Assembly: GCA_030427145.1 (NCBI GenBank)
Contig: JAUHWT010000030.1
Coordinates: 1 to 34,120, forward strand
Reading direction: 5' to 3'
Source of the DNA: Alphaproteobacteria bacterium
GTDB lineage: Bacteria; Pseudomonadota; Alphaproteobacteria; Rhodobacterales; Rhodobacteraceae
Length of the DNA stretch: 34,120 nucleotides
The notes below the pieces were generated by a model. That model saw nothing but the letters and a program-made list of their open reading frames with translations. It was not told the origin of the DNA and did no database searches. This document shows positions 323-32,149 of this stretch, piece after piece; the stretch's first letter is position 1; each line of letters opens with the position of its first letter. The position numbers were made by a program, and so were the translations under genes.

Positions 323-340
323 TTTCACATTTTGATTGAC
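323..340 (+). promoter_or_regulatory. TTTCACATTTT box upstream of the rightward gene block
   Basis: TTTCACATTTT at 323-333 is followed by TTGAC at 336-340, about 55-70 bp upstream of the first good ribosome binding site. The same TTTCACATTT word forms one arm of inverted repeats near 11969 and 19522. A clean -35/-10 pair is not obvious here, so the promoter call rests mainly on position and on the shared word. Confidence 0.35.
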
Positions 341-393
341 TCTCTGCACAAATGCGCATAGAAGTTGATCAACCAAAGAGCGAGGTGGCGCCC

Positions 394-618
394 ATGATCA
401 ACGAGGATAAAGTTTGGAACCCGGTCGAGGCCGCCTGCCTCGGCAAAGAGGGTTACGACCGGGCCACGGCCGGGCGCGTTGCCCGAAAAGCCAAAGCCCC
501 TTTGAAAACGTTCAAATGCCCCCACTGCGGCATGTGGCACGTCGGCACGCCACTGGGCGTATCGCCCGGCACCCGCAAACGCGGCACAGCGAAACTTCGG
601 CGCAAGAAGCGCCCCTGA
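394..618 (+). CDS. Small zinc-knuckle-like phage protein, function unknown
   Basis: A 74-residue basic protein. The centre reads CPHCGMWHVG: a CxxC pair followed by a histidine, which suggests half a zinc-binding site or a small zinc ribbon. The C-terminus is rich in Arg and Lys (GTRKRGTAKLRRKKRP), consistent with nucleic-acid binding. Similar C-x2-C-x2-WH-x-G cores occur in many short uncharacterised phage proteins, mostly in early gene blocks. I chose the ATG at 394 because GAGGTG lies about 7 nt upstream; an in-frame ATG at 352 lacks such a site. It is the first gene of the rightward block and ends 26 nt before the kinase gene. Metal binding and DNA or RNA binding are inferences. Confidence 0.7.
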   Translation: MINEDKVWNPVEAACLGKEGYDRATAGRVARKAKAPLKTFKCPHCGMWHVGTPLGVSPGTRKRGTAKLRRKKRP

Positions 619-644
619 TAACCACCCATTACAGGAAAACAAAC

Positions 645-1346
645 ATGGCACGAAAGATCATAGGGCTCATCGGATTCGCAGGGGCAGGCAAGGACAGCGT
701 CGCGAATATTTTGGCAGACGACTTCGGTTTCTCGGTGATGAAAAATGCCGAGGGTCTGAAATCCATGCTGCGCACGTTCCTGCGGCTCCGCGGGGTCACG
801 AATGACGAGATCGCTCGGATGATTGAGGGTGATCTGAAGGAGCTTCCAACGGACTACCTCGGCGGAAAGTCCCCGCGTCACGCCATGGTCACGCTCGGCA
901 CCGAATGGGGGCGTGACCTGATTTCACCGAATCTGTGGGTCGACACGCTGCGCGACCGGATCAACAACCACCCGTCCGAGCGTATCGTCGTGAGCGATGT
1001 CCGGTTCACCAATGAGGCGGATCTGATCCGCGAAATGGGCGGAGAAATATGGCGCATCGATCGCCCTGGCACCATCCCCGTCGACCTCTCCAAAGCACAC
1101 GAGAGTGAGACTGAGATGCTTTCCATCCCGGCAGACAAGTCGATCCGGAACGACGGCGATCTGAAGAACCTCTGGATGGAGACTTGGATCGCATCAGACC
1201 TCGAAGCTGACAGCCACGACCATTACGACCAGGCTGCCGATGAGTACGAACTTGAAGCTCTCTACAAGCGCGAAAAGCGGCTGTTCTTTGGCGCATTCGC
1301 AGCTTTCCTGATGATCGCAATCACGCTGTTCGTCGTCGCCAGTTGA
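645..1346 (+). CDS. Deoxynucleoside monophosphate kinase-like protein with C-terminal membrane segment
   Basis: A 233-residue P-loop kinase. The Walker A motif is GFAGAGKDS at 10-18. The pattern VSDVRFTNEADLIREMGGE (about 116-134) followed by HESET (about 152-156) matches phage dNMP kinases, which phosphorylate deoxynucleoside monophosphates to diphosphates for phage DNA synthesis. The kinase core seems to end near residue 180. After it comes an acidic linker and then a hydrophobic stretch, LFFGAFAAFLMIAITLFVV (213-231), at the extreme C-terminus. This looks like a tail anchor, which is not usual for this soluble family. The ATG at 645 follows AGGA about 9 nt upstream. Two HTH/GapR-type genes and an HD hydrolase follow downstream. 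Substrate specificity cannot be read from the sequence. Confidence 0.85.
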   Translation: MARKIIGLIGFAGAGKDSVANILADDFGFSVMKNAEGLKSMLRTFLRLRGVTNDEIARMIEGDLKELPTDYLGGKSPRHAMVTLGTEWGRDLISPNLWVDTLRDRINNHPSERIVVSDVRFTNEADLIREMGGEIWRIDRPGTIPVDLSKAHESETEMLSIPADKSIRNDGDLKNLWMETWIASDLEADSHDHYDQAADEYELEALYKREKRLFFGAFAAFLMIAITLFVVAS

Positions 1347-1370
1347 CACAATTCACTTTATTAGTGTAAG
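1343..1370 (+). promoter_or_regulatory. Promoter-like element with CACT-N5-AGTG inverted repeat
   Basis: TTGACA (1343-1348) overlaps the kinase stop codon and is followed 16 bp later by TGTAAG (1365-1370). Between them lies CACTTTATTAGTG (1354-1366), an inverted repeat with 4-bp arms. The word TGTAAGTCGC recurs exactly on the minus strand in the gap near 11990. The element is 20 bp upstream of the GapR-like gene and its AAGGAG site. An operator placed between -35 and -10 would suit repression; this is inferred. Confidence 0.5.
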
Positions 1371-1389
1371 TCGCTTTTAAGGAGTCAAG

Positions 1390-1680
1390 ATGCCCTACCC
1401 TTCCAACGATTCACCCGAAACTCTCGACGACGACCAGCCCGATTCCCTTCGGGTGAGCGCGGCCGAACTTCGGGCCTTTGTGACCCGAATAGAGAAAATC
1501 GACGAGCTGATTGATGACCATCGGCAGGACCGGAAAGAGGTGGTCGCCGAGGCCAAGGCGCGCGGCTACGACCCTGCCGTTCTGCGGGCGATCGTATCAC
1601 GTCGCAAAAAGGATCCGGAGAAGCTGAGCGAGCACGAAGCCATCATGCAGCTCTATCTCGAAGTTCTCGGCGACATCTGA
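1390..1680 (+). CDS. GapR-like (DUF2312) DNA-binding protein
   Basis: A 96-residue protein. From about residue 24 it follows the GapR/DUF2312 pattern: LRAFVTRIEKIDELIDDHR, then KEVVAEAKARGYDPAVLRAI, then a basic SRRKKDPEKL, and finally an acidic helix ending LYLEVLGD. In Caulobacter, GapR is a nucleoid-associated protein that binds overtwisted DNA ahead of polymerases and helps topoisomerases; the family is largely alphaproteobacterial. This copy has a 22-residue acidic N-terminal extension (PETLDDDQPD). The start is supported by AAGGAG 7 nt upstream. The gene follows a promoter-like element and is followed 15 nt later by an HTH gene. A role in phage replication or in reshaping host chromatin is inferred. 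Confidence 0.85.
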   Translation: MPYPSNDSPETLDDDQPDSLRVSAAELRAFVTRIEKIDELIDDHRQDRKEVVAEAKARGYDPAVLRAIVSRRKKDPEKLSEHEAIMQLYLEVLGDI

Positions 1681-1695
1681 GCCACGGAGATCAAA

Positions 1696-1932
1696 ATGCC
1701 CACTGACCAGGCGATTGCCGACTACCTGCGGCACGTAATCAACGGCGTCTCGATGCGCAAAATTGCCCGGGAAAACGGCGTCCACGCATCGACGGTTCTG
1801 CGTCGCATTCGAGTCGTGGAGGACGCGCGGGAGGAACCCGGCTTCGACCAGTGGCTCACCGACCTCGAACAATCAAAACGAACTGAAACCCCAGCGCAAG
1901 ATCGGAGACAGACATGCAGCTTGGCACATTGA
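1696..1932 (+). CDS. Small helix-turn-helix DNA-binding protein
   Basis: A 78-residue protein with one clear HTH: MRKIARENGVHASTVLRRI at about residues 20-38, preceded by a helix (AIADYLRHVINGVS). The layout resembles HTH proteins common in Rhodobacterales that carry an 'HASTVLR' recognition helix. No second domain is present; the C-terminal 25 residues look unstructured. CGGAGA lies upstream of the ATG. The 3' end overlaps the next gene by 19 nt, so translation is probably coupled. It could be the regulator acting on the inverted repeats found in the intergenic gaps, but nothing in the sequence proves the pairing. Confidence 0.7.
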   Translation: MPTDQAIADYLRHVINGVSMRKIARENGVHASTVLRRIRVVEDAREEPGFDQWLTDLEQSKRTETPAQDRRQTCSLAH

Positions 1933-2255
1933 AGGCAGCGATTCGCGCCACCAAGGGCCCCATTACATTCCGGGCCATGGTGCCCGCCGCCGGCAACATC
2001 CGCGAACCGGCCTACGTCCACCTGGCACTGGCGAAAAACGTCCTGCTGTCGGAGCTGACAGATCTCTACGGCAAAAAGAACGTCGAGACGGGCATGACGC
2101 TGACCGACGACGGTCTGCTCGTGAACGAGGATCTTGCCGATACCGCTGAGAAGCCGCGCCTGTCGACCTCCGATCAGACCGAGCCCGATGGTCCGGTCTG
2201 CGAGACGACGCCGTTGCCCGAAGAATACCAGCTTGATCTTGAGGATCTGCTCTGA
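1914..2255 (+). CDS. Hypothetical early protein with QLDLEDLL tail
   Basis: A 113-residue protein that I do not recognise. The N-terminal two thirds (MQLGTLKAAIRATKGPITF and onward, about 1-75) look like a small folded alpha/beta domain. Residues 76-105 are acidic and proline-rich, probably a flexible linker. The last eight residues, QLDLEDLL, resemble the QL[SD]LF peptide that binds the bacterial sliding clamp. Two other products of this phage also end in DLL. GGAGA lies about 6 nt upstream of the ATG. The gene lies inside the HTH gene's end and overlaps the HD hydrolase by one nucleotide (TGATG), so it belongs to the same coupled operon. Confidence 0.65.
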   Translation: MQLGTLKAAIRATKGPITFRAMVPAAGNIREPAYVHLALAKNVLLSELTDLYGKKNVETGMTLTDDGLLVNEDLADTAEKPRLSTSDQTEPDGPVCETTPLPEEYQLDLEDLL

Positions 2256-2848
2256 TGTCCATCGCCTTCAACCCGAACGTGGTGGGGACCGCCTCGGGGA
2301 TGTTCGACTTCGTGAATCCTGATCCGGCCTGCGTGGCGGATTTGCCCGAGATCGCCATAACCATGGCACGACTGGCCAGGTTCGGCGGCCGCGGTGAGCG
2401 ATTCCTCAGCGTGGCCGAGCACACCGTGCGCTGTGTCAGAGTCGCGAAGTCTCTCAACATGGACCTGACACAGTGTCGCGCCGTATTCATGCACGACGTT
2501 CCCGAGTTCTATCTGGGGGACATCCCAACGCCACTCAAGCGCGTGCTGTCGTACTATGCGGACCTGGAGGAGGGTGTCAGCGAGGCCTGCCACGTCGCAT
2601 ACGGTGTTGAGTACTCCCACGAGGCGGTTGCAATTTGTGACCGGTACGCCTTCGTCGCTGAGTGGGAAATTGTGTTCCCGGGCACCCCTGCCCCGTTGCC
2701 ACCCTCGGGCGAGCCGCCCACGTCGCTGAAACAGGTTCTGCGTGCCGACTGCTATATGCGTCGCGACGAGCCTGACCGATCGTCAGTTGTAGCGCGGTTC
2801 ATGGAAACCGCATGGGCTCTCGGAATTGAAAAGGTGCCGGCACCATGA
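2255..2848 (+). CDS. HD-domain phosphohydrolase (YfbR/YfdR-like nucleotide hydrolase)
   Basis: A 197-residue HD-superfamily enzyme. The expected metal ligands are all visible: H56 (SVAEHT), H80-D81 (FMHDVPE) and D129 (ICDRY). The block HDVPEFYLGDIPTPLK (80-95) closely follows the YfbR/YfdR pattern, a family of 5'-deoxynucleotidases or dNTP hydrolases often carried by phages. The DatZ dATP hydrolase of phages that replace adenine with 2-aminoadenine belongs to the same wider fold. The likely role is adjusting the host deoxynucleotide pool. It overlaps the upstream gene by 1 nt and the methyltransferase by 4 nt. The exact substrate is unknown; I see no purZ or thymidylate-synthase-like gene here. 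Confidence 0.85.
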   Translation: MSIAFNPNVVGTASGMFDFVNPDPACVADLPEIAITMARLARFGGRGERFLSVAEHTVRCVRVAKSLNMDLTQCRAVFMHDVPEFYLGDIPTPLKRVLSYYADLEEGVSEACHVAYGVEYSHEAVAICDRYAFVAEWEIVFPGTPAPLPPSGEPPTSLKQVLRADCYMRRDEPDRSSVVARFMETAWALGIEKVPAP

Positions 2849-4005
2849 ATGTCAGCGTGCGCCCCGGAGATGGCCGGGAGAGCCTTCAGCGAATGATCGA
2901 TGCCGGCGAGTTCGTGCAATCGGTCGTCACAGACCCGCCCTACGGCCTCACCAGCGTGGTAAAGCGTTTCGGCAAGGATGGCGCGGCGAAGGCCAAACAC
3001 GGCACTGACGGAGCGTTTGCGCGGGCGTCTGCCGGCTTCATGGGTAAAGCCTGGGATGGCACTGGCATTGAGCGCGACCCCGAGTTCTGGCGACTGGTCC
3101 ATGATGTTCTGCTGCCCGGTGGGTTCTGCTTCGCATTCTCGGGCGCCCGGACCGGCCACTGGCAGGCCGTGGCGATGGAGCAGGCTGGGTTCATCATGCA
3201 CCCTATGCACGTATGGATGTACGGCAGCGGTATGCCCAAGGCCCACGATGCGGCAAAGGCGATCGACAAGTATATGGGTGTCGAAGGATCCTCAGACGCG
3301 GAGAAATGGTCCGGGTGGAAATACGGCACACAGACTCAGAAGCCGGCGATCGAGCCGATCTACCTGGCTCAGCGTCCATTCAGCGAAAAGAACGGACCTG
3401 CCAACCTGATCAGCCATGGAGTCGGCGCGCTGAATATTGACGGGTGCCGTATTACAACTTCGGATAATTTGAACGGTGTGGCGTACGCCACAGCGGGGAA
3501 CAGAAAAGAGAGCCCATCCCTTCACGGTGGCTCTGGGATGAATGTTCCCGGAAAAACCGTCGGCAAAGATTTTATACAGCCGACAGGTCGATACCCCGCC
3601 AACCTCCTGCACGACGGATCTCCCGCCGCCTTGGATCTGTTCCCGGGGACCGCGGAGAAATCGGCATCGCGATTCTTCGGATCGTTCCCACCCGACACAG
3701 ACATCGCCATCTACGCGCCGAAGGCCGGTAAGGCCGACCGAGCAGGATCGAAGCATCCGACCGTCAAGCCCATCGCGCTGATGCGCTACCTCATTCGCCA
3801 CGTCACGCCGCCAGGTGGGACAGTGTTGGACCCTTTCGCCGGGTCAGGTTCAACGGCCGCCGCCGCGCTTGAGGAAGGGTTCAACTGCATCCTGATGGAA
3901 TCTGACGAGGCGTATGTCGAGTTCCTGCATCAACGGTTTGGTGAAAAAACGAGCAATTTGCCCATTGCCGCCGACGTCTCGGCGGATCTCGCAGACCTTC
4001 TGTAA
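2845..4005 (+). CDS. DNA methyltransferase, beta class (probably N6-adenine)
   Basis: A 386-residue N6_N4_Mtase-type enzyme. Catalytic motif IV, DPPY, is at 30-33. HPTVKP (304-309, motif X-like) and the AdoMet-binding DPFAGSGST (329-337, motif I) come later, the motif order of beta-class enzymes. The long region between (about 45-290) holds the presumed target-recognition part with LNIDGCRI (196-203), typical of phage members. DPPY rather than SPPY favours adenine methylation. No restriction endonuclease is adjacent, so it is an orphan enzyme, probably protecting phage DNA or affecting expression. It starts inside the HD gene (ATGA overlap) and ends ADLADLL. An inverted repeat overlaps its stop codon. 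Confidence 0.93.
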   Translation: MNVSVRPGDGRESLQRMIDAGEFVQSVVTDPPYGLTSVVKRFGKDGAAKAKHGTDGAFARASAGFMGKAWDGTGIERDPEFWRLVHDVLLPGGFCFAFSGARTGHWQAVAMEQAGFIMHPMHVWMYGSGMPKAHDAAKAIDKYMGVEGSSDAEKWSGWKYGTQTQKPAIEPIYLAQRPFSEKNGPANLISHGVGALNIDGCRITTSDNLNGVAYATAGNRKESPSLHGGSGMNVPGKTVGKDFIQPTGRYPANLLHDGSPAALDLFPGTAEKSASRFFGSFPPDTDIAIYAPKAGKADRAGSKHPTVKPIALMRYLIRHVTPPGGTVLDPFAGSGSTAAAALEEGFNCILMESDEAYVEFLHQRFGEKTSNLPIAADVSADLADLL

Positions 4006-4018
4006 ACACTGCGTTTAC
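4002..4018. promoter_or_regulatory. GTAAAC-N5-GTTTAC inverted repeat at the methyltransferase stop codon
   Basis: GTAAAC (4002-4007) and GTTTAC (4013-4018) form a perfect 6-bp inverted repeat with a 5-bp spacer, overlapping the TAA stop (4003-4005). There is no T-run behind it, so an intrinsic terminator is unlikely. It has the same N5 spacing as the CACT-N5-AGTG elements and precedes the last rightward gene, so it could be an operator. Confidence 0.4.
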
Positions 4019-4076
4019 CATCTGCGGGATACTGAGCGAATTGTACTAAAAATTACGATAAATGCGAGATTTCCAA

Positions 4077-4286
4077 ATGTCAGCCAAAAATCCAAATTAT
4101 ATCGAAGCCTGTGAAACCGGTCGCCGCATGGCGGAAGACTACCTTGCCGAGGTTTCGGAAACGGGGAATCCGACCTCACTGCATCACGTGATCCACAAGG
4201 CGGCGAATGGGCCAGAGGGCACTTTGGCGGGCTTTGCGATCGTGATCAGTCAGCGGATCATCAAGGGCGAACCCGTCACGCAGTGA
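4077..4286 (+). CDS. Small hypothetical protein, last gene of the rightward block
   Basis: A 69-residue protein that I do not recognise. It reads as an alpha-helical small domain: MSAKNPNYIEACETGRRMAE, then SLHHVIHKAANGPEGTLAGF and a C-terminal helix (AIVISQRIIKGEP). There is no signal peptide, zinc motif or membrane segment. Two in-frame ATGs (4062, 4077) are possible; I prefer 4077 because the weak purine-rich GCGAGA is suitably spaced. A 71-bp gap separates it from the methyltransferase. Its end overlaps the end of the convergent metallophosphoesterase gene by 11 nt, so no bidirectional terminator fits between them. Confidence 0.55.
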   Translation: MSAKNPNYIEACETGRRMAEDYLAEVSETGNPTSLHHVIHKAANGPEGTLAGFAIVISQRIIKGEPVTQ

Positions 4287-5514
4287 ACGGTTCGCGACGG
4301 CTTGGGATATAGGTCGCACCGGACCCCGCGTGACCGGCCTTAACAGCATCCCACACCTGTTGAATGGGCAGCAGCCGGCGCCCGATCTCCCCATAAGTGC
4401 GACTGCGAAATATCATGGTCATCGACTGCCGCGCCCGGTACCCCTTGTCGTGGTGCCACTTGTCTCCCGGCGCCAGGGTGTTGAAACTCTCGACTGATAT
4501 GGATGGGTAGTCCTTGGCAACGGTGCGGTGGTGAATGTGCCCGGTGTCGATATAGTGGAACTCGGTCTCGCCGAAATCTTTTCGGAAGTCTGAGACCATC
4601 ACGGACGGCAGGTTGGCCGGCCGGCACGAGTCCCCATGATGGACCATAACTAACGTGTTGCCCATGCGATACCCCGGGAACGGACTCACATTGGGCAACA
4701 CGTTGACCCGGTCGCCCGGGTATGCTGCCAGGAGCAGCTGGCGCATCCATATATCGTTGGTGCGGGAATGGTTCCCCTGATTCACTATGACGTCCACGAC
4801 CTTCGCCTTGGTCAGCGCCATGTCGACGAGGAACCGCATGATTCGCACATAGGCGTTAATCATGCGCGGGTAGCGGGTATCGTAATCGAGAGCGTTCCCA
4901 CTGGCCTCTGTCGTGCCGCTGAAGTTCTCGTAATGAGTAAAGTCGCCGAGATCATTCAACACCAGTCGATCGACCTGCGGCAGATCAGACAGCAGAATTG
5001 AGAAGGCGGCACACACCTCGCGTTCGGCAATTTTCAGGTCGAAATTCTTGCCGGTCTCGGCCTCGTGGGCCAGCATTCCCAGGTGGCAATCGCCGATTTG
5101 CAGCCAGGGTATGACGTCCGAATCACCGACGCGCGGCGCCGGTGGCACCTTGACCGGGCCGACCCCTTCAACAAAACTTTCAACGGCCGCCTTGACCAGT
5201 TCGAGATGGGCCTGCTCGTTCAGCCGGGTCTTGACCCACTGCTGCCGCGGCTTGCCCTCTTTGTCGTAATAGGTCGAATGGCCCTTCGCCACATAGGGCT
5301 CGGGGATTATGTGGGTGAGATCATGCTCCGGGCTGTAGCCCTGCGCGGCGGCCCGCTTTCGCACCCGACGCACTGCCCCCTGCACCGTGGCACGGGTGAG
5401 GCCGAGATGCGAGGCCGCGGTCCGCTGGCTGCCCGTCTCGTTTAGGCTGTTGATGATCTGTTTTTCTCTCGGTGTCGCCCATTCCAGCAACTTTTCGTCG
5501 ATATGCGATGCCAT
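4276..5514 (-). CDS. Metallophosphoesterase with N-terminal HTH
   Basis: A 412-residue two-domain protein. Residues 13-50 carry a helix-turn-helix (TPREKQIINSLNETGSQRTA, then LGLTRATVQGAVRRV). From about 134 there is a calcineurin-like phosphoesterase with all five metal or catalytic blocks: GDCH (141-144), GDFTH (190-194), GNH (247-249), HHGD (292-295) and GHIHH (325-329). Such proteins are frequent in phages but their substrate (DNA, RNA or nucleotide) is rarely known. The HTH suggests action on DNA. CGGAG lies 7 nt before the ATG. It is the last gene of the leftward transcript, 12 nt after the membrane protein gene, so it is presumably expressed late with the lysis genes, which is odd for a DNA-metabolism enzyme. 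Confidence 0.87.
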   Translation of the reverse strand: MASHIDEKLLEWATPREKQIINSLNETGSQRTAASHLGLTRATVQGAVRRVRKRAAAQGYSPEHDLTHIIPEPYVAKGHSTYYDKEGKPRQQWVKTRLNEQAHLELVKAAVESFVEGVGPVKVPPAPRVGDSDVIPWLQIGDCHLGMLAHEAETGKNFDLKIAEREVCAAFSILLSDLPQVDRLVLNDLGDFTHYENFSGTTEASGNALDYDTRYPRMINAYVRIMRFLVDMALTKAKVVDVIVNQGNHSRTNDIWMRQLLLAAYPGDRVNVLPNVSPFPGYRMGNTLVMVHHGDSCRPANLPSVMVSDFRKDFGETEFHYIDTGHIHHRTVAKDYPSISVESFNTLAPGDKWHHDKGYRARQSMTMIFRSRTYGEIGRRLLPIQQVWDAVKAGHAGSGATYIPSRREPFTA

Positions 5515-5526
5515 GGGCAGCTCCGG

Positions 5527-6219
5527 TCACTCGTCAAGGTACCCGTTGTCGGATATGATGAAATCCACCACCGGGCTGTAAATTGTCCGAACGTCGGGGC
5601 AATCCTCGAAATCGCTGAGAATCACCTGGGCGTATCCGCGGCCCGGCTGCACGCCGTCGTTCTGGGGCACGCGGCCTGAGTAATTGATTGTCACCGGTAT
5701 GGTGCTCACGGGCAGATTCACACCGCGACCGTCGTCTGACAGGACCGATAGCGACTGCATGTAGTGCTGCAGGCCACCACCGTTACGGAAACTCATGGCC
5801 ACTTTCGGGCGCCCGCAGTCCCTGTTTTTGACCAGGGTCCACGAGATCTTGACGCGGCCGTTCTCATCCATCGGGGTTATGGAGTGCCCGCCGCCTGAGA
5901 AGGTCACCGGCGGCGTGCTGTCTATAGCGCGCTGTTTGGTAATCTCGTCCAGTTGCAGCGTTATCAGCTCCAGCGCCTGTGTGTTTTTCTGCGCGATCTC
6001 CTGAGTCGCCTGCAACTGCCGTAGCGTTGTTTCAAGCGTCGCATTCAGATCTTCGACACCGAGTATCTCGGCCATCGGCCCGCGCACCATGTCGTTCTGT
6101 ATGAGGAAATAACCCAGGGCGCCAAGCGCGGCCGCACCGGCGAGTACCTGCTTCACAACACCCAGTATGCTCAGGACACCGGACCATGCCCCCTGTGCGA
6201 CTTCTTCGGGATAGGTCAC
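5527..6219 (-). CDS. Membrane protein with coiled coil in the lysis cluster, function unknown
   Basis: A 230-residue protein if started at GTG 6219, which overlaps the o-spanin stop (GTGA) and has AAAGGA about 6 nt upstream; an in-frame GTG at 6237 is less likely. Residues about 14-40 (WSGVLSILGVVKQVLAGAAA and on) form one strong hydrophobic segment. A coiled coil with Leu/Ile heptads follows at about 60-95 (LNATLETTLRQLQATQ and on). The C-terminal 130 residues are rich in beta-forming residues and contain two Cys (NRDCGRP and EDCPD). It sits directly downstream of endolysin and spanins, so a holin or antiholin role or a membrane-surface exclusion function is conceivable. I do not recognise the family. 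Confidence 0.65.
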   Translation of the reverse strand: MTYPEEVAQGAWSGVLSILGVVKQVLAGAAALGALGYFLIQNDMVRGPMAEILGVEDLNATLETTLRQLQATQEIAQKNTQALELITLQLDEITKQRAIDSTPPVTFSGGGHSITPMDENGRVKISWTLVKNRDCGRPKVAMSFRNGGGLQHYMQSLSVLSDDGRGVNLPVSTIPVTINYSGRVPQNDGVQPGRGYAQVILSDFEDCPDVRTIYSPVVDFIISDNGYLDE

Positions 6220-6494
6220 GACTCGTCCTTTCTGCACAGATCCACAACCGTCTCAAGTTCATCCAGTCGCACTGTGCGCTGGTCCCTACCAACGACCAGC
6301 AGTCGGTAGCGTTCCGCCAGGTCGGGTGCCGCGATGAGCGCGACATCATTGTCAACATACTCGGGCGCTTCCGGCAGACCGGGCGGAACGCATGACGTCG
6401 ATACCGGTGTCAACACGTCGATCGTGCGAATGCGCTCGAACGAACTGCACGCCGAAAGGGCGCACAGCACCACGGCGAGCAGGGCCGGCCTCAT
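6216..6494 (-). CDS. Outer-membrane spanin subunit (Rz1-like lipoprotein)
   Basis: A 92-residue lipoprotein. A short hydrophobic signal, MRPALLAVVLCALSAC, ends in the lipobox LSAC with Cys16 as the acylation site. The mature part (about 77 residues) would sit in the periplasm, attached to the outer membrane. Its ATG overlaps the stop of the upstream i-spanin gene (ATGA), the ordered Rz/Rz1 arrangement; in lysis the pair fuses inner and outer membranes after the endolysin has cut the wall. Two further Cys (35 and 87) could form a disulfide, as in some spanins. It ends in an overlap with the membrane protein gene. The call rests on lipobox plus position, since Rz1 proteins are poorly conserved in sequence. 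Confidence 0.8.
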   Translation of the reverse strand: MRPALLAVVLCALSACSSFERIRTIDVLTPVSTSCVPPGLPEAPEYVDNDVALIAAPDLAERYRLLVVGRDQRTVRLDELETVVDLCRKDES

Positions 6495-6859
6495 TGCAAT
6501 GTTTCCAGGAAAATTCGGTCGACGGCCTCGGCACGCTGACACTCCGTGGCGTTCGCCGGCGGGCGAATCGCCGATCTTGCGGCCCTCGCAGCATTGTCTG
6601 CCGATCGCAGTCTTTCGAGCGCGGCCTGCGCTTCGGCCAGTCGTGCTTCCGATATCTCCGACGCACGACGTATGTCCGCGTTTCTTCGCGCAACCGTGGC
6701 CTCAAGATGGTCGACCTGCAGCTCAGCAGTTGCCGTTCGCACAGCGTATCCGTTGGACCCATGTATCGACTGGCGCAGGTCCCAGGAGTATGCGAGCAGA
6801 AGTGCGCAGGTGCCCGCGAGCACCTTGCAACACAACCCGGATGTGAGTCTGGTTATCAC
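6491..6859 (-). CDS. Inner-membrane spanin subunit (Rz-like)
   Basis: A 122-residue protein with the i-spanin plan: one N-terminal membrane segment (GLCCKVLAGTCALLLAYSW, about 8-26) followed by a long charged helix (about 40-95: VDHLEATVARRNADIRRASE, SEARLAEAQAALERLR) likely to form a periplasmic coiled coil. A conserved-looking C-terminal tail (ATECQRAEAVDRIF) would meet the o-spanin. The GTG start at 6857-6859 overlaps the endolysin stop (GTGA), and its own stop overlaps the o-spanin start. It acts in the last step of lysis by bridging the periplasm. The call is by topology and context. Confidence 0.82.
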   Translation of the reverse strand: MITRLTSGLCCKVLAGTCALLLAYSWDLRQSIHGSNGYAVRTATAELQVDHLEATVARRNADIRRASEISEARLAEAQAALERLRSADNAARAARSAIRPPANATECQRAEAVDRIFLETLQ

Positions 6860-7734
6860 AGCTTCGCGCTCTGCTCGTCGATCTTGCGGTAGAACGACCA
6901 GGCCATGAGCCCGCTACCGCCGACCATGAGAAGCATCGCGACGACGCTGACCGCCTGTCCGAGTATGGTTCCGTCGGCAAAGGCTCCGAGTTGTTCGGCA
7001 GATTCCTTTAGAGCGGTTGCCACGGCGCCGATCGCTGCCGATGTAGCGCCCACGCCCTCTTTGGTTTTCACGACGGCCACGTCCGAGTCGCGTGCCTGCC
7101 CGGCCACTTCGCCGGATAGTGCGCCAACCGGCCGCGGTAGGGGCAGGTTGCGTTGCTCCACGTAATTGAACGCGTTGGCGTAGGCCATTTCCGTCGCGTA
7201 ATCGATAACACCATGATCATCACGCTGAGCACCTGGCTCGCTGCCCATGATGCGGCGCGTCCATCCGCGGCCAAACGTTTTGAACGTCTTCAGACGCTTG
7301 ACGAATTCCAGGCGAGCCAGGCAATAATCAGTGATCAGATCCTCAATTTCGTACTGACTGATCTCTCCGATTGCCGCCAGTGTCTTGAGGCCGATGATGC
7401 CGTCGGCTGCAACGTTGAGCAATTTCTGCAGTTCGAGCGCGGCGCGTGCCGGGCCGGAGTTCACTGCGAAGTCGAACACAGCATAGTCGAGACCGTTCGG
7501 CAATTCGTCGCCGCGGACCGCGTCCCAGTATTGCTTGCGATAGATCGCATCGACCTCTTCACTGGTGATTTCCTTGACCGAGCGAAGGTGCTGCTTTCGT
7601 GCGCTTCGGTACGCGTCGTAGACGCGCTGCGTCACACCAAGGTTGGTCGCCCCGCCGGGGTCTTCCGGGTGATCACTGAACCCGCCCTCATGGGCAAGCA
7701 TCAGTTCGAGGCTCTTTTCAAGGTTGTGACGCAT
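6856..7734 (-). CDS. Endolysin, GH108 N-acetylmuramidase with C-terminal membrane segment
   Basis: A 292-residue protein. The N-terminus carries the glycoside hydrolase 108 signature, HEGGFSDHPEDPGGATNLGV (15-34), with Glu16 the predicted catalytic acid; these enzymes cut the glycan strands of peptidoglycan. The C-terminal half of the catalytic module (DYAVFDFAVNSG, about 83-94, and LQKLLNVAADGIIGLKT, about 102-118) matches the accompanying peptidoglycan-binding part. An Ala/Gly-rich linker follows, then one membrane helix (about 259-282, AVSVVAMLLMVGGSGLMAWS) and a short charged tail. ATG 7734 follows GGAGGGT. No signal peptide is seen, so membrane placement or a holin must bring it to the periplasm. 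It is first in the lysis operon behind a promoter-like element. Confidence 0.9.
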   Translation of the reverse strand: MRHNLEKSLELMLAHEGGFSDHPEDPGGATNLGVTQRVYDAYRSARKQHLRSVKEITSEEVDAIYRKQYWDAVRGDELPNGLDYAVFDFAVNSGPARAALELQKLLNVAADGIIGLKTLAAIGEISQYEIEDLITDYCLARLEFVKRLKTFKTFGRGWTRRIMGSEPGAQRDDHGVIDYATEMAYANAFNYVEQRNLPLPRPVGALSGEVAGQARDSDVAVVKTKEGVGATSAAIGAVATALKESAEQLGAFADGTILGQAVSVVAMLLMVGGSGLMAWSFYRKIDEQSAKL

Positions 7735-7759
7735 GCGCGCACCCTCCAACGTTTGAAAC

Positions 7760-7788
7760 GTGATACTCACTTTACGAGTGAATGTCCA
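7760..7788 (-). promoter_or_regulatory. Promoter-like element of the lysis operon with CACT-N5-AGTG repeat
   Basis: On the minus strand TGGACA (7788-7783) and TATCAC (7765-7760) are separated by 17 bp. The spacer contains CACTCGTAAAGTG (7780-7768), an inverted repeat with 4-bp arms. A second palindrome, CGTTTGAAACG (7750-7760), follows. It is 26 bp upstream of the endolysin start and downstream of the tailspike stop. The repeat lies between the boxes as in the element at 1343-1370. Confidence 0.5.
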
Positions 7789-7802
7789 CGTAAAAGTCGT
7801 TA

Positions 7803-9608
7803 CTAAATGGTTAGTTCTGATCGCATTGAGACAATGTTCACAGTCCCGCTGGGGTTCGAGTTCTCCACGTAGAGCCGCCATTTGAAGTATTCATTGGCGT
7901 TTGAGAACAAGTCGGGCCGGTTGAAGTTGATCGTGGGGCGATGCTTTATGAATAGGCTGCGCTTCCCACTGTCACCCGTATCCACGTGGCACGTCGTGAT
8001 GGAGCTTCCCATCCCGTCGTCGCCCGGGCCGTAGACCAGGAACTCGACGACACACTGCCGGTCGCCGGGCGTGGAATCCTCCATGATCACTTCCCCCAGC
8101 ACCGAGTCAGCGCTGGAGCTGTCGCCGGACAACTGGATCGTCGGGGTGTTGCCGGACCCGCCATACTCGAAGTGGACGATCGTCTTCAGGCATACCCGCG
8201 CGTGCGAGAAGGTCCACTTGGGCCCACGGAACGGGGAAAGATTGTCCTCACCGAGCACGTTGGCGACATTCTGCCGCCCTATTCCTTCGATGCGACCACT
8301 CCACGTGTCCTTGAAACCGGTGAACATGTGCGCGTGAACCGCGGGCGCCTTACCCTGGTCAAAATGCTCGATGACCGCGCTGCCTTCGGTTATCAGTGCC
8401 GGGGAGCCGAGACTTGCGCCGGGGAACGTGTCGGGGTTGTCCGTGTCACGCGACCACACGCCGCCGCGATCGACGTTGACAAGCGGGTTGCCGGCTACGG
8501 TGACGGCCCCAAAGGAGTTGCGCTGGGTGCGCATACGGGAGTTGTGGCTGATTGTCGCGTTTCGCTTGCACCCGGTAAATGTGCTGTCGACCACGTAGCC
8601 GGTGGACATGCGCGAAAAGTCGACACCGACACCGCATGTGTTGAACACGAAGCCGGGGCCGTTTCCGAATCCGAGACTCGCGCCAGACGAGTGAACGTAG
8701 ACCGCCTTTTCCTCGATGTTCTGGAAATGGCACCCATCGCCCCGCAGGGAACTGCGGCGCACATGAATGCCGCGCGTGCTGTCTTTCACCCAGAGGTTAT
8801 TGACATCGACCGAGGATCCTGACGAGGCGATTTGAATCGCAGGACCACCCGACTGCCCGAACAGCAGGATGTTATCGAACCTGATGTTGATTCCGTTGAT
8901 CTCGTACCAGGTTTCGATCGCCGAATTGTCCGGGTTCGACGAGCAGTCGATCTTCGCGGTGGGTTCGGCATAGTTTCGCTCCGGCCCCTGCCAGACGATC
9001 CGTGCGTTCGGAGCACCTGTCCAGTATCTCAGACCGACGGCGCCCAGGATTTCGTGCGTGCCGGCGGCAAACACCAGTTTGAATTTGGCCGAGGCTGCCC
9101 CATCGCCCAGGCGGCAGAGCGCGTTCCATGCGGCAGCCACGGTTTGCAGCGGTGTGTCAGCTGTTAGGCCGTCATTGGTGTCAGACCCCAGAGGGTTGAT
9201 GTGGACCTCCACGCTGTCCGCGAATCCGTGGTTCTCGAATTTCAGTGAGTTGGTGTTGTTGCGGTTCAGTATGCCTGGCCCGCGGCTGCGCACTTTCGTG
9301 ACGTTCGGCGTTTGACCTGCACACAGGTACGTGCCCTCGGGCCAGTAGACGAAGCCGCCCCCGGCGATGGCCGCAGCATAACAGTCGTTCACGGCCGTGG
9401 TGTTGTCGGTGGCATTGTCACGGATCGCCCCGAAACTGGTCACCGAAAAAGCGCGACCGCCCGAGGAAATGTGGCCTGATATCCAGTTCCAGATTGCCTC
9501 GTAGGTGGTCCTGCGGGAGTTGCCGCCCTGCCATATATGACAGCGGTCACTGTCTGAAATCGGGGCGGAGGGAGGTATGCCGCCATCATCGTCGAGATTA
9601 TACGCCAT
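7803..9608 (-). CDS. Tailspike with pectate-lyase-like right-handed beta-helix
   Basis: A 601-residue protein. Residues about 53-95 (FSVTSFGAIRDNATDNTTAV, then GGGFVYWPEGTYL) are the entry to the Pectate_lyase_3-type beta-helix seen in phage tailspikes and depolymerases. The middle repeats short strand-turn units (DVNNLWVKDSTRGIHVRRSS, DFSRMSTGYVVDSTFTGCKR), as expected for a right-handed helix. The last 150 residues look like a beta-sandwich for trimerisation or binding. The N-terminal 50 residues (IWQGGNSRRTTYEAIWNWIS) may attach it to the tail. AGGACCAGGAA precedes the ATG. It ends the tail genes and is followed by the lysis operon. It probably binds or degrades a surface polysaccharide; enzymatic activity is inferred from the fold only. 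Confidence 0.85.
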   Translation of the reverse strand: MAYNLDDDGGIPPSAPISDSDRCHIWQGGNSRRTTYEAIWNWISGHISSGGRAFSVTSFGAIRDNATDNTTAVNDCYAAAIAGGGFVYWPEGTYLCAGQTPNVTKVRSRGPGILNRNNTNSLKFENHGFADSVEVHINPLGSDTNDGLTADTPLQTVAAAWNALCRLGDGAASAKFKLVFAAGTHEILGAVGLRYWTGAPNARIVWQGPERNYAEPTAKIDCSSNPDNSAIETWYEINGINIRFDNILLFGQSGGPAIQIASSGSSVDVNNLWVKDSTRGIHVRRSSLRGDGCHFQNIEEKAVYVHSSGASLGFGNGPGFVFNTCGVGVDFSRMSTGYVVDSTFTGCKRNATISHNSRMRTQRNSFGAVTVAGNPLVNVDRGGVWSRDTDNPDTFPGASLGSPALITEGSAVIEHFDQGKAPAVHAHMFTGFKDTWSGRIEGIGRQNVANVLGEDNLSPFRGPKWTFSHARVCLKTIVHFEYGGSGNTPTIQLSGDSSSADSVLGEVIMEDSTPGDRQCVVEFLVYGPGDDGMGSSITTCHVDTGDSGKRSLFIKHRPTINFNRPDLFSNANEYFKWRLYVENSNPSGTVNIVSMRSELTI

Positions 9609-9617
9609 TTCCTGGTC

Positions 9618-24542: not shown

Positions 24543-26299
24543 TACGCGCCTCCATCATGATACGCTTCGAGCCACTCTGCCAGGGCGAAGGAGTAGTCCA
24601 TGCCGAACTGGCCGTACTTGGTGCCACCGGTCCCGCCTTCCCACACGCCGGTAAGGCTGCCGCCGTTCGCGTAATCCCGGTGGCCCGTGGTGACCACTTT
24701 GTATTTGATGTCCGCCCACCCAACCTTGTAACGGTTCATGATGGTCTGTTGCGTGGATCCACCTGCGGGCCATTTACCCATGGCGATCAGCGCAATCATT
24801 GTGGCGACCCCAGGGCGGGCGCCACCGAGGACGTACTGGACCGAGCAGCGCCTGTCGTTGCCACCGGCATCGTTCGCCTTGAACTCGCGCGCCCCGCCGA
24901 TTGTGCCGATCGGGTTTGGCATGCCAGCAATGAGTGCGTCTTCGTTCGCGGGCGTCGTGATCATGGTCCCGTACAGGGTACCGTTCACGTTTATGCCCTT
25001 GCCGTCAGTACCGATTCCGCGCACGACCGGGTAGCCGAAGCAGTCCTCGTAGACCTCTTCCTTCACCATTTCGTCGATGTTCGCTGGCGTCAGGTTTTTG
25101 TACCAGCACCGCCAACCGCGGTTGGGATTGGCTGATGTGGATCCACGGATAATATTCTGGAATTGGTTGACAGTCACACCTTTGTGGAGATTGTACGCAT
25201 AGCGCATCGAGGTGAACCCGTAATCGTCCATCTTCGAAAGATCGGACGAAAGGGTGAAGTCCGCCAACTTCTGCGCAAACTCAGAGGCACCGAAATACGC
25301 TGAGGCCAATGCAACGGTCAAAGCCTTCGGGTTGCGGTGGTTGGAGTTATAGGACGGCCTGTACTCGTTGGCCGATCCGTCCATGGGCTCACCGCCGGTC
25401 TCCGGGTAGAGGTCTGAGGTGACGTATGCACCGCCTTTGCCGCACTGCTCGACAATGAAGTCCAGGCGCGTCTTCTCGTAGGCCTGCATGTTGTCCCACA
25501 CGCCCGGGGTAGCGCGAGCAAGACAGATTGTGGCTACGGCAAACAGTTCATACTGGGCGGTATAGTTGCCGCAGGCGTTGGGGGCGTTTGCCCCATTCAA
25601 CCACGTTCGCAACTGACTGCGTACCGCGGCCTCCTGTGTATCGTCACCGAGCCATGCGGCCAGTGCGACAGCGACACACGCAGGGCCGAAGAAGCCACCG
25701 TTTGTACCGGGGCCACCGGCGCTTGTGCGGGTAAATTTTAGGTTCGCCTTCGAGCGTGCGTCCGTGACGGCCGCCGCCGGGAACTCGGGATAATCTCCAC
25801 TCGGTTCGGAAATCGTGACCTGAAATGCAGTTGACGCAGACCCACTGCTGTTGGTTGCAGTCACCGTGATCGTCACGGCGTTGAGAGCGCTTCCAGTGGC
25901 TATCGTGACAACACCTGTTGACGCGTTGATCGACGCCCCGCCACCGCTCACCGAATACGATATTCCGGTACCCTGAAACGCCCCCGCAGTGGGAATTTCG
26001 AGCGCCGCACCCCCTACCGTGCCTGTTGCGTCTGAGATCGGTGCCACTGCCACAGGGGCGGGTATGGTGGCCGTTCCGGTCGACCCATTGTAATAGTCGT
26101 CCACCCACGCCGCTACCGGCCATTCCGGGGAGTCCTCGCCCCCGGTCAGCAGTAGTTCGACGTTCCCCTCGACGACTTCCTCAGCAAGATTGCCGCTTGT
26201 CACAGCACTACCCGGCTGCAGCGTAAAGTCGGCCGCCCGGAGTTGCCCGCCCGCAACAGCCTTGGAAGCCAAAAGCATCTGCGCAGCTTTGTGTATCAC
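24542..26299 (-). CDS. Tail protein with Ig-like domain and putative alpha/alpha-barrel polysaccharide-active domain
   Basis: A 585-residue protein from GTG 26299 (GTGA overlap). Residues about 1-75 are a short phage attachment part also built for coupling (QLRAADFTLQPGSAVTSGNL). Residues about 80-165 are an Ig/He_PIG-like domain (GISYSVSGGGASINASTGVV, VTATNSSGSAS). From about 175 the chain is mostly alpha-helical with repeated helix pairs (CVAVALAAWLGDDTQEAAV, TAQYELFAVATICLARATPG, YEKTRLDFIVEQCGKGG, RNPKALTVALASAYFGASEF), which looks like the alpha/alpha-toroid of alginate- and heparinase-type lyases. Conserved-looking polar residues occur in YRPSYNSNHRNP. A depolymerase role is inferred; I do not recognise a named family. 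Confidence 0.65.
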   Translation of the reverse strand: MIHKAAQMLLASKAVAGGQLRAADFTLQPGSAVTSGNLAEEVVEGNVELLLTGGEDSPEWPVAAWVDDYYNGSTGTATIPAPVAVAPISDATGTVGGAALEIPTAGAFQGTGISYSVSGGGASINASTGVVTIATGSALNAVTITVTATNSSGSASTAFQVTISEPSGDYPEFPAAAVTDARSKANLKFTRTSAGGPGTNGGFFGPACVAVALAAWLGDDTQEAAVRSQLRTWLNGANAPNACGNYTAQYELFAVATICLARATPGVWDNMQAYEKTRLDFIVEQCGKGGAYVTSDLYPETGGEPMDGSANEYRPSYNSNHRNPKALTVALASAYFGASEFAQKLADFTLSSDLSKMDDYGFTSMRYAYNLHKGVTVNQFQNIIRGSTSANPNRGWRCWYKNLTPANIDEMVKEEVYEDCFGYPVVRGIGTDGKGINVNGTLYGTMITTPANEDALIAGMPNPIGTIGGAREFKANDAGGNDRRCSVQYVLGGARPGVATMIALIAMGKWPAGGSTQQTIMNRYKVGWADIKYKVVTTGHRDYANGGSLTGVWEGGTGGTKYGQFGMDYSFALAEWLEAYHDGGA

Positions 26300-26868
26300 G
26301 GCAGCACACCTGCGTTTCGCGCGGCGACAACCAGAGGACTGGTCGGGTTGGCGAGGATCAGGGCCTTCAGGTGATCGACATTTCCGTACATCTCACCGTG
26401 CTCGCGCACAAACGCGCGGGTAAAGTCCTCAAGCATCTGGGCGTCACGCGCGGCACCCATGGCGTCGATCACTGCCTGAATCTGAGGCAGACCCAGTGTC
26501 TCAGGCGTTGGGTCTGCCGGGATGGCTTCAAACTCCCATCCGAACGCGACGCGGTCGCCCACCACCCAACGATTGGTCGGAAGGGTGTCAAGTAGCGCCT
26601 GTTTTTCGGACGCAGTGGCATCTGGAGCAGCAACAACCCACGCCTCGGTGCGTCGCATTCCCTCGGCAGGCTCGGGCCACTCCATGAGATAGAGTCCGGT
26701 CAGGCGCAGGGCCAAAAGCTGAACATCGGCCGGTGACTCGCCGTTCGCGATACGCTCCTTGGCCAATGCGATTACGTGTTGCACCGTGACCGAGCCCATA
26801 GGGGCCAGTCCGGCTTTCGCTGGTTTTAGATCCGGACCGCTTTCGTCCACTACATATGCGACAATCAT
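26296..26868 (-). CDS. Hypothetical protein between tail fibre genes
   Basis: A 190-residue soluble protein that I do not recognise. It starts MIVAYVVDESGPDLKPAKAG and appears alpha/beta in the first half (SVTVQHVIALAKERIANGES; GMRRTEAWVVAAPDATASEK) and helical in the second half (IQAVIDAMGAARDAQMLEDF; GNVDHLKALILANPTSPLV). There is no signal peptide, membrane segment, or metal motif. Both ends overlap the neighbours by 4 nt (ATGA, GTGA), so it is translated together with a collagen-like fibre upstream and the putative lyase downstream. A minor structural protein or fibre chaperone is possible from context only. Confidence 0.6.
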   Translation of the reverse strand: MIVAYVVDESGPDLKPAKAGLAPMGSVTVQHVIALAKERIANGESPADVQLLALRLTGLYLMEWPEPAEGMRRTEAWVVAAPDATASEKQALLDTLPTNRWVVGDRVAFGWEFEAIPADPTPETLGLPQIQAVIDAMGAARDAQMLEDFTRAFVREHGEMYGNVDHLKALILANPTSPLVVAARNAGVLP

Positions 26869-30663: not shown

Positions 30664-30667
30664 GTGG

Positions 30668-31359
30668 CTATTCCATTAGCTGCTTCATTGCCTTCGCGAA
30701 GTTTTCCGCGATTTTCTTAGTCGCCGCTGGCGATACGCTCATATTGGGTATTGCGGAGATCCCCATCTGGTTCAGCGAAACCTCGGTGCAGATCTGAGCG
30801 TTCACGCGCTCTGCAACGATTTCCGCTTCCTCGAACAGCAGACCCAGTGGGTAAAGCCAGGCGTCGGAATGTCCGTGTGCCATCAGAAGACTGGCCTGTT
30901 TTCGGACATTCCATACCCACTCGGTCAGGCTGGCGGGCCACTGGGCGGTATCCCCGCCGCGTGCGCCGCGTTGATGATGATCTCCAGCGTCTTTTTTGGC
31001 CCACCATGTGCGCTAAACGTCAGGCGTGCGATCGCGTCCAGGCAGACAATCTGATCGGAAGCCGGAAGCGCCTCGGCGATTTCCCACTGGTCCGGTTCAC
31101 CGTTCGCCTCCGCGATAATGCGCCCGATCAGGCTCGGCGCCTCTCGGGTCACATAGGCGACCAGCACCGGCAGGGCGCTGTCGTCCAGTTTGCCAGAGGC
31201 GGCGTCCGCGTAGATCTTCTGCATGGCCTCACCCTGACTGCCCATGAGAGTCAGGATGGATCGCAGCGGCAGGCCACGGAAAACCAGGTCCAGCGTGACC
31301 CCGCCATCCATGGTGACGGGGACAGTCTCAGTGCGAATGGCGTACTCAGACAGGCCCAT
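30668..31359 (-). CDS. Tail assembly chaperone G-T, product of a -1 ribosomal frameshift (joined reading)
   Basis: Reading starts at ATG 31359 in the G frame for 123 codons (to 30991) and continues in the -1 frame from 30991 to the stop at 30668-30670, giving about 230 residues. The -1 frame is open from the slippery site to the stop (107 codons; the preceding stop in this frame is at 31013-31015). The added part includes EWVWNVRKQASLLMAHGHSD and ends KKIAENFAKAMKQLME. The order G, G-T, tape measure is the standard one of siphophages, in which the rarer G-T form binds the tape measure during tail assembly. The only ATG in the T part (30883) has no good ribosome site, which supports frameshifting over separate translation. 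Confidence 0.85.
30925..31359 (-). CDS. Tail assembly chaperone G
   Basis: The unshifted product, 144 residues. It follows the major tail protein by 3 nt and is mostly helical, as expected for lambda gpG-like chaperones: GVTLDLVFRGLPLRSILTLM, AMQKIYADAASGKLDDSALP, EIAEALPASDQIVCLDAI. The last 21 residues after the slippery site are KTLEIIINAAHAAGIPPSGP followed by PA. G coats the tape measure together with G-T before the tail tube polymerises and is not part of the finished virion. Start ATG 31359 has a GGGG stretch upstream, a moderate site. Identification is by position, size and the frameshift rather than by sequence identity. Confidence 0.82.
   Translation of the reverse strand: MGLSEYAIRTETVPVTMDGGVTLDLVFRGLPLRSILTLMGSQGEAMQKIYADAASGKLDDSALPVLVAYVTREAPSLIGRIIAEANGEPDQWEIAEALPASDQIVCLDAIARLTFSAHGGPKKTLEIIINAAHAAGIPPSGPPA
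30991..30997 (-). other. Slippery heptamer A AAA AAG for -1 frameshifting
   Basis: On the minus strand the G frame reads CCA AAA AAG ACG, so the heptamer A AAA AAG is in the right phase for a -1 slip, giving AAA AAA GAC. This is the same heptamer as in E. coli dnaX. A GC-rich stretch follows with a possible hairpin GGCGG-GGATA-CCGCC about 35 nt downstream. Confidence 0.85.
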
Positions 31360-31362
31360 GCG

Positions 31363-32130
31363 TTACGACCCCAGGTAAGGTTGGCCGTCCAGGTACACTT
31401 CAGCAAAGCCACCCTTCCGGAGAACTTCCAGATCAAGTTGGAACTCCTGCCATTCGTCGGAGATCAGGCCGAGGTCCCCGGTGGGGCTGACCTTCACGCT
31501 AGGCAGGAAGTAGTCGAACCGCTGACCTTCCGGGTTAAAGGACCTGAACTGCAGGGCGCCGGAGATCTGCGCATCGCCAGACCGAACCTGAATGCGTTCC
31601 GAGGCGGTTGTGTCGTATGCCACTTCCATCTCGGTGCCGGACACGATCGCGCCGCCCTCGACCACGGTGATAATGCCGCGATCCGCGTCGACCAGGTAGT
31701 CGTCAGTCAGGTCGAAGGTGGTGGCACCCTCGGTGACGACTACGTTTGTCAGCTTACGAACGCCGGTGGGGCGCGCATCGGTGATACCCACCTGGTAGCT
31801 GCGGCCCTGTTTCTCCGTGGTGAACGTTTCAGTCTGAGACGTCAACGCAGCCGCCACAATGGTCTCCGATTCGCCGTAGAAGAACAGCTTGATGTTCTCC
31901 GGGTCTACGTCATCACACGTGATCGAGCCCGTGGTGTCGATCTGAAGCGTCACCGAAGCGTCTTTTTTCCGAAGGCCGGATGTCGAAGAGTAGTGGTCCA
32001 ACTTCTCCTCGCTGCGGCTCAGCGTGAAGGAAGAGCAGTTACCGAAAAACCGGAAGGCCCCGGGCGTTTCGGTTCCGGGGAGAAATTCAGCGAAGTGAAT
32101 CTCACCTCGACCAAGTGTATAGTTCGGCAT
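31363..32130 (-). CDS. Major tail tube protein
   Basis: A 255-residue beta-rich protein with the features of siphophage tail tube subunits. The opening MPNYTLGRGEIHFAEFLPG, then FRFFGNCSSFTLSRSEEKLD and ASVTLQIDTTGSITCDDV, shows the usual early strands; the middle (RPTGVRKLTNVVVTEGATTF, DLTDDYLVDADRGIITVVEG) may be an added Ig-like insertion. I chose ATG 32130 because AGGAG lies 8 nt upstream; a GTG at 32139 is inside that site. It follows the terminator-like gene and precedes chaperone G, the canonical order. It should be among the most abundant virion proteins. Its ribosome site lies within a small inverted repeat, which may control its output. Confidence 0.88.
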   Translation of the reverse strand: MPNYTLGRGEIHFAEFLPGTETPGAFRFFGNCSSFTLSRSEEKLDHYSSTSGLRKKDASVTLQIDTTGSITCDDVDPENIKLFFYGESETIVAAALTSQTETFTTEKQGRSYQVGITDARPTGVRKLTNVVVTEGATTFDLTDDYLVDADRGIITVVEGGAIVSGTEMEVAYDTTASERIQVRSGDAQISGALQFRSFNPEGQRFDYFLPSVKVSPTGDLGLISDEWQEFQLDLEVLRKGGFAEVYLDGQPYLGS

Positions 32131-32136
32131 GATTAT

Positions 32137-32149
32137 CACTCCTGTAGTG
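32137..32149 (-). promoter_or_regulatory. CACT-N5-AGTG hairpin enclosing the tail tube ribosome site
   Basis: On the minus strand CACTACAGGAGTG (32149-32137) has 4-bp arms CACT/AGTG, and the AGGAG site (32143-32139) lies in the loop and right arm, 8 nt before the ATG. It is also a member of the CACT-N5-AGTG family. TTTCAC and TATATT lie just upstream on the same strand (about 32155-32170), so a promoter is possible. Protein binding to DNA and RNA folding are both feasible. Confidence 0.45.

Follow-up and report, generated by a model that had tools for sequence, protein, structure and literature searches.

Recurrent symmetric dyads in the intergenic gaps of a Casjensviridae-like prophage of Rhodobacteraceae as probable operators of a CI-like repressor

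The window analysed here is a 34,120-nucleotide stretch of an alphaproteobacterial genome (Rhodobacteraceae, assembly GCA_030427145.1) and is the entire contig JAUHWT010000030.1, hereafter C39, of this 4.54-Mb, 40-contig genome. An earlier note on the sequence described short inverted repeats in most of its true intergenic gaps and proposed that they mark a phage-wide regulon or a promoter class. The repeats are most probably the operators of a CI-like immunity repressor encoded outside the window, at positions 11226-11924 of contig C2 (C2:11226-11924), in an integrated Casjensviridae-like prophage to which the window belongs.

The repeats are present as the note described them. CACT-N5-AGTG occurs exactly at 1354-1366, 7768-7780 and 32137-32149, with a one-mismatch copy at 19525-19537, while 10-bp inverted arms are found at 11969-12011 and 19522-19559, 8-bp arms at 16975-17015, and a single arm at 323. 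The words themselves are real, but the two families into which they had been divided are one 17-bp dyad, TTCAC-N7-GTGAA, which is two-fold symmetric and not asymmetric. The long-loop 10-bp inverted repeats are the half-sites of neighbouring dyads (11995-12011, 16996-17012, 19523-19539 and 19542-19558). Recurrence beyond chance holds for the exact word, with three copies against 0.45 expected, all three in gaps (which, together with 8-bp flanks, amount to 2.7% of the window's length), but not for the word with up to one mismatch, which is at chance window-wide (10 against 9.66 expected) and was therefore dropped as a motif. The word TTTCACATTT, with at most one mismatch, occurs five times against 1.32 expected, a number reached in two of 100 shuffles. 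Two 10-mers are common to different gaps, against 0.19 in shuffles, a marginal excess (19 of 500 shuffles have as many). The shared word of the earlier note, TGTAAGTCGC, is found at 1365 and again at 11985 on the minus strand, likewise a marginal case.

Much stronger and independent support for recurrence comes from a matrix built solely from 20 gap sites of Rhodobacter phage RcIroh, applied with a cut-off of 5 bits and compared with dinucleotide-shuffled versions of the gaps. This matrix has 14 matches in the gaps of the prophage, seven of them in the window, against 1.47 in shuffled gaps, and none of 300 shuffles has as many; the rate in coding DNA predicts 1.07. Matches occur in six of the nine window gaps in the gap list used, so that “most true gaps” was an apt description; gaps 1-351, 619-643 and 4006-4077 have no match of at least 5 bits. 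When the prophage gaps are taken from called open reading frames (ORFs), just four dyads at spacing 7 are found, a weaker result than with the curated gaps. The dyad is also present in the other pieces of the prophage, on contig C11 upstream of the small terminase gene (positions 8568-8584 of locus L040) and on C2 at 11945-11961. The regulon proposed in the note is thus supported by sites on two further contigs and by their recurrence in related phages that carry the regulator gene described below.

In these phages, a gene for a helix-turn-helix (HTH) protein of 217-244 aa is flanked by the helicase gene on one side and by lysogeny or packaging genes on the other. The prophage version, C2:11226-11924, encodes 232 aa with a CI-like HTH, and is located between helicase and methylase genes near the right attachment site. 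It matches the transcriptional regulator family PHROG_2967 (E 2e-22), while its match to Pfam HTH_3 reaches an E-value of 0.0053 only, under the family cut-off, and the Pfam search returned no S24 (LexA/S24 autoprotease) match. The regulator was found by tblastn in 49 phage records, some of them through short HTH-only matches. Using HHpred, the authors of AchV4 and AH2 likened their versions of the protein to lambda cI and 186 CI, and phages of cluster RcD are reported to form apparent lysogens (PMC8601537).

Related phages were scanned for all 3-mer dyads with spacers of 0-14 in annotated gaps. CAC-N7-GTG is the top-ranked dyad of RcIroh (20 of 58 in gaps, p 6e-10), and CAA-N7-TTG ranks first in KlebYMC (Klebsiella phage YMC16; 14 of 16 in gaps, p 1e-12) and in PS6, and second in AchV4 and SS2019XI; the top dyad of X2_30 is TCA-N9-TGA. 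The two forms were then pooled as CA[A/C]-N7-[T/G]TG and compared with shuffles of the same gaps. Enrichment is strong in six of the eight regulator-bearing phages examined besides the prophage, namely RcIroh (20 dyads), SS2019XI (16), PS6 (15), KlebYMC (14), X2_30 (14) and AchV4 (11), each with 0 of 200 shuffles having as many, and spacing 7 is prominent in most regulator-bearing phages. Among phages without the regulator by tblastn, in the first 50 kb of each, Nazgul and Chi have no dyads and Enc34 has two (50 of 200); no integrase is annotated in these 50 kb. The lytic control Redjac has eight against 7.18 expected (84 of 200), a count that says little because its annotation is sparse (41 features). 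A further 26 loci were found through the DNA polymerase or the regulator, and 13 were tested, comprising all eight with the regulator and five without. Five of the regulator loci have 8, 7 and 7 dyads (each 0 of 200) or 5 and 5 (each 1 of 200). Where no regulator was found in the stretch examined, three loci have no dyad and L107 has two (21 of 200). The remaining loci are considered with the contrary evidence below. The gaps of X2_30 (L071/L072) also show a second peak, CAA-N4-TTG, with 15 of 39 in gaps (p 4e-8).

The positions of the dyads are shared as well. Full or mixed dyads occur in the TerL-gpW gap of all seven regulator-bearing phages that have such a gap (six full; mixed in this prophage), before the major tail protein gene in eight of eight examined (five full), and before tail gene h41 in three of four; the gap after the capsid gene, with a dyad in just one of eight, serves as contrast for these counts and for that of the Cro-like gap below, all made without a shuffle control. 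The gap between the Cro-like and exonuclease genes has a dyad in seven of nine regulator-bearing phages (five full), compared with none of two lytic phages without the regulator. Upstream of the regulator gene itself, a full dyad is found in eight of 11 loci, where 500 shuffles gave a mean of 1.0 and a largest value of six. In RcIroh the dyad upstream of its own gene 19 lies in the arrangement TTGACT-TTCACATCCGTTGTGAA-TATCTG, while SS2019XI and AH2 have none in this position. Five loci with genome relatives of the regulator gave a divided result: a dyad precedes the regulator gene in L085 and L090, no convincing one does in L087 and L089, and the upstream sequence of L086 is too short; the ORF-called gaps of all five show no excess.

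The half-site letter follows the predicted recognition helix of the regulator. A helix reading E-Ala-V/M accompanies CAA dyads in gaps (eight phages, 81 vs 10), and E-Thr/Ser-V accompanies CAC dyads (seven phages, 42 vs 4). On a tree built without the helix columns, residue and letter match in every one of the 18 rows; the tree excludes L086, L087 and L089, and the comparison excludes AH2 and L116 (Gly). This agreement fits the CI-like protein as the binder without proving it.

The earlier note had treated the DNA as that of a free phage, but the window is a prophage contig. C11 and the window overlap exactly over 127 bp at their right ends, which is the mark of an assembly k-mer. With RcIroh proteins as tblastn queries, the window yields tail, lysis-side and methylase genes, and the right end of C11 yields integrase, terminase, portal and capsid genes. 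A tRNA-Met gene adjoins the integrase gene on C11, and its final 16 bp are repeated exactly at C2:13090-13105 (E 0.86 taken alone), while C2:1-13105 contains RcIroh-like primase, exonuclease, polymerase, helicase and HTH genes. Together, the C11 overlap, the tRNA-Met and integrase genes, the 16-bp tRNA copy and the replication genes on C2 place the window, on sequence grounds, in the middle of an integrated prophage, estimated at about 61.7 kb (pieces summed) plus an unassembled gap at tandem repeats. An overlap between C2 and the window was looked for and not found, and their join is inferred. The structural, packaging and replication genes are homologous to those of RcIroh and lie in RcIroh order, and the nearest known phages are the Rhodobacter RcIroh types (Casjensviridae). 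Close relatives suitable for footprinting were found neither by megablast of 1-25000 against phages, nor through the tail protein or P0001 among viral contigs, nor through the portal protein among genome contigs; portal relatives across 394 genomes of the family share only 33-37% identity.

Several dyads exactly fill the 17-bp spacer between -35-like and -10-like hexamers. Such hexamers frame four of the six full dyads of the prophage and seven rows among the 20 RcIroh sites, both being geometry counts without a chance control. The earlier note had placed two repeats between such boxes, which is true of the repeat around 7766 and also of that around 1352, where the -10 box is weak. A dyad between -35 and -10 boxes fits repression through blocking of RNA polymerase, and the sites are likelier to be an operator class over host-type promoters than the promoter class that the note had offered as its other option. 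In the mechanism proposed here, each dyad would be occupied by a repressor dimer that, using a lambda/434-type HTH, sits between or across the -35 and -10 boxes and shuts a host-type promoter. The operators are found in early, replication-side and packaging gaps and in several gaps among the tail genes. A single repressor could therefore maintain lysogeny by keeping the many transcription units silent one at a time, and loss of the repressor would free them all together. The dyads, their excess in gaps, their recurrence in relatives, the linkage of the contigs and the presence of the gene are computational results; we infer that the C2:11226-11924 protein binds the dyads, that it represses through binding, and that the prophage is inducible.

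A number of observations weigh against this assignment. The prophage by itself would not have revealed the motif. An unbiased 3-mer dyad scan of the prophage gaps ranks CAC-N7-GTG 28th of 95 (p = 5e-4), with A+T-rich dyads ahead, and exact dyads in these gaps number six against 1.98, with as many in five of 200 shuffles. The repressor gene of the prophage is itself preceded by a mixed dyad only. Weak enrichment is seen in two regulator-bearing phages, DSS3P1, with seven dyads (7 of 200) and spacing 11 equally common, and AH2, with five (16 of 200) and spacing 9 commoner, and in X2_30 spacing 4 gives an equally high peak (15). Three of the new regulator loci, L106, L116 and L108, are likewise weak, with 2, 2 and 1 dyads (20, 24 and 104 of 200 shuffles). 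L111 has three (4 of 200) and no regulator in the stretch examined. The agreement of helix and letter amounts to only two changes on the tree, so that a sign test cannot reach 0.05; one row, L085, was manually assigned to CAC on the strength of its upstream site, though its ORF-called gaps show one CAA, and two rows draw on 1 to 7 sites.

The product of a small HTH gene next to the primase gene could bind instead of, or in addition to, the CI-like repressor. Cro and CI share operators in lambda, and sharing here would fit that paradigm. The candidate is the Cro-like protein encoded at C2:3913-4263, which would bind the sites mainly, alone or jointly with the CI-like protein. Its gene is present in this prophage and in RcIroh, the gap adjoining it often has several dyads, and the authors of AchV4 relate their own small HTH protein to cI by HHpred. 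Enc34 and Redjac, however, annotate a regulator beside the primase gene and Chi a small gene there, yet Chi and Enc34 have no dyad excess and none in the Cro-like gap. The operator letter, moreover, tracks the helix of the CI-like protein. The Cro-like protein is an unlikely main binder. A second HTH protein, encoded within the window at 1696-1932 on the plus strand, was the binder suggested by the earlier note. The gene is near the dyad at 1352 and has weak matches to HTH_38 and PHROG_31864, but the latter family, its sole PHROG match, is of unknown function, and among the RcIroh proteins tested by tblastn none matches the 1696-1932 protein, though RcIroh shares the dyads. The gene that tracks the sites across phages is the CI-like one, and of all the explanations weighed here binding by the 1696-1932 protein is the least credible.

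The overlap of the sites with host-type -35 and -10 boxes would also be expected if a host transcription factor or host promoter class used them and the phage merely borrowed them. The dyad nevertheless follows a phage gene through phages of Alpha-, Beta- and Gammaproteobacteria, and relatives in related hosts that do not carry this gene lack the dyad. Both the CAA type (X2_30, L114, L115) and the CAC type, furthermore, are found among alphaproteobacterial phages, an argument against a host factor, and the RcIroh matrix has a low density in the host contigs examined (81 matches of at least 5 bits in 293,227 bp, or 0.276 per kb). A host origin is accordingly very unlikely. Even less probable, by a small step, is that the repeats reflect chance, A+T-rich gap composition or RNA hairpins such as terminators and attenuators. 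The chance level of the one-mismatch word and the A+T-rich dyads that outrank the motif in the prophage gaps would suit such an origin, but the RcIroh matrix was derived without the window and finds more sites in the gaps than in their dinucleotide shuffles, and a terminator scan of 1-20000 reported none at the dyads. Operators of the CI-like repressor remain the preferred explanation.

The structure of the regulator was modelled with AlphaFold2 for the L108 homologue (mean predicted local distance difference test score, pLDDT, 82.5; predicted template modelling score, pTM, 0.56). In Foldseek comparisons, the HTH of the model resembles the TP901-1 CI domain (TMt 0.69-0.72) and 434 Cro (0.68). 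The top matches of the C-terminal half are the Holliday junction resolvase Hjc (best E 1.8e-4) and the homing endonuclease I-Ssp6803I, with TMt of 0.47-0.56 and TMq of 0.29-0.36; in the model this half may resemble a PD-(D/E)XK nuclease fold. At the strand judged equivalent, the catalytic E-x-K is missing in 22 of 22 aligned homologues, while D is present in 16 of 22. A dead nuclease fold that serves for pairing would at most be a fair guess. Tentatively, and with considerable doubt, these features may be extended to a regulon that is conserved among the temperate Casjensviridae of Alpha-, Beta- and Gammaproteobacteria and serves for silencing. It would comprise a CI-like HTH joined to a catalytically dead PD-(D/E)XK fold, symmetric operators in matching gaps that shut early, packaging and internal tail promoters singly, and a helix residue (Ala or Thr/Ser) that sets the operator letter (A or C) and the immunity group.

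Along the window, the first proposed operator dyad, TTCACTTTATTAGTGTA (1352-1368, 11.6 bits), has TTGACA on its 5′ side and is located upstream of a gene for a GapR-like DNA-binding protein (1390-1680, plus strand; PF10073, E 3.9e-22). This gene is part of the early operon, and its RcIroh homologue carries a DsbA-like annotation. The dyad TTCACTCGTAAAGTGAG (7766-7782, minus strand, 8.4 bits) fills the spacer of TGGACA-17-TATCAC upstream of an endolysin-like gene. Upstream of the tail protein gene 9618-11960 lies TTCACATTTTACGTTAT (11995-12011, minus strand, 10.8 bits), with an extra half-site at 11969-11978, and upstream of the tail gene 16724-16957 lies the mixed dyad ATCACCTTTGAGTTGAA (16996-17012, 8.3 bits), whose matching gap in RcIroh has a full dyad. 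The homologue of the RcIroh gene transfer agent TIM-barrel-like protein is encoded by a tail gene at 17016-19511 on the minus strand, downstream of two dyads. These are TTCACATTTATAGTGTA (19523-19539), with 15.9 bits the top score of the prophage gaps, and the weaker TTCACATTTTTGGTTAT (19542-19558, minus strand, 5.6 bits), which is beside the promoter-like pair TTGAAA-16-TATTTT. The last dyad, ATCACTCCTGTAGTGTG (32135-32151, 9.0 bits), is upstream of the major tail protein gene (31363-32139, minus strand; PHROG_807, an RcIroh homologue) and overlaps its likely ribosome-binding site. At the left end, the single half-site TTTCACATTTT (323-333, plus strand; 2.2 bits as a dyad) is found upstream of a TTGACT box, in the same layout as at C11:143954 (L040 5956).

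Other features of the prophage pieces were also observed. C11 and the window break inside their 127-bp common stretch, in a head-tail gene, which hints at a branching repeat in the assembly. Tandem repeats occur at the left end of the window at 1-99 and 213-311 (26-bp and 17/34-bp units), and a second array at the start of C2 (L060 1-175), within a large non-coding region beside the primase gene; this is possibly a replication origin or cos region. On C11, a serine resolvase/invertase gene (L040 5231-5923) adjoins a MazG-like operon of the prophage, and a near-identical small gene is present in two copies about 700 bp apart (L040 6940-7130 and 7638-7825). The tail module of the window contains, at 20797-26868, four large or mid-sized ORFs (1145, 153, 585 and 190 aa) that have no PHROG match; RcIroh has none there.

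Dispersed repressor sites are already known from other phages. The P1 repressor C1 acts at 22 operators dispersed over the phage DNA and represses lytic genes (PMC8546580). The prophage likewise has one motif in many gaps, but it is integrated and its motif is a two-fold dyad, unlike the 17-bp asymmetric operator described there for P1. The stoperators of cluster A mycobacteriophages are similarly numerous in gaps genome-wide, but are described as asymmetric sites of a monomeric repressor with two DNA-binding domains that also halts elongation (PMC9283540), whereas the sites here are symmetric and placed on promoters. Temperate Casjensviridae such as RcIroh (cluster RcD), AchV4 and AH2 share homologous genes and gene order, a regulator adjoining the helicase gene, and dyads in gaps; in the available portions of their publications, a CI-like protein or lysogeny module is named and operators are not described. 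Symmetric operators dispersed in this way in Casjensviridae were not found in the open-licence papers searched, as far as their accessible text extends. The HTH fold and the two-fold operators with CA[A/C] half-sites are features in common with CI proteins of the lambda/434/TP901-1 type, the half-site being similar to that of 434. The present system differs from these in that its sites are spread over the prophage, the helicase and lysogeny genes flank its regulator gene, and the C-terminal half of the protein is not of the LexA/S24 type, given the lack of such a Pfam match.

If the assignment is correct, it would supply a map of operators ready for use and name a candidate repressor for a family whose lysogeny control, in the literature searched, rested on HHpred guesses. 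The operator code could predict immunity groups and separate temperate from lytic members by sequence, and the system would offer a way to test how a nuclease-like fold became part of a repressor. It would also mean that symmetric operators, beside the asymmetric ones of P1 and the stoperators, can spread over a prophage and silence late genes directly.

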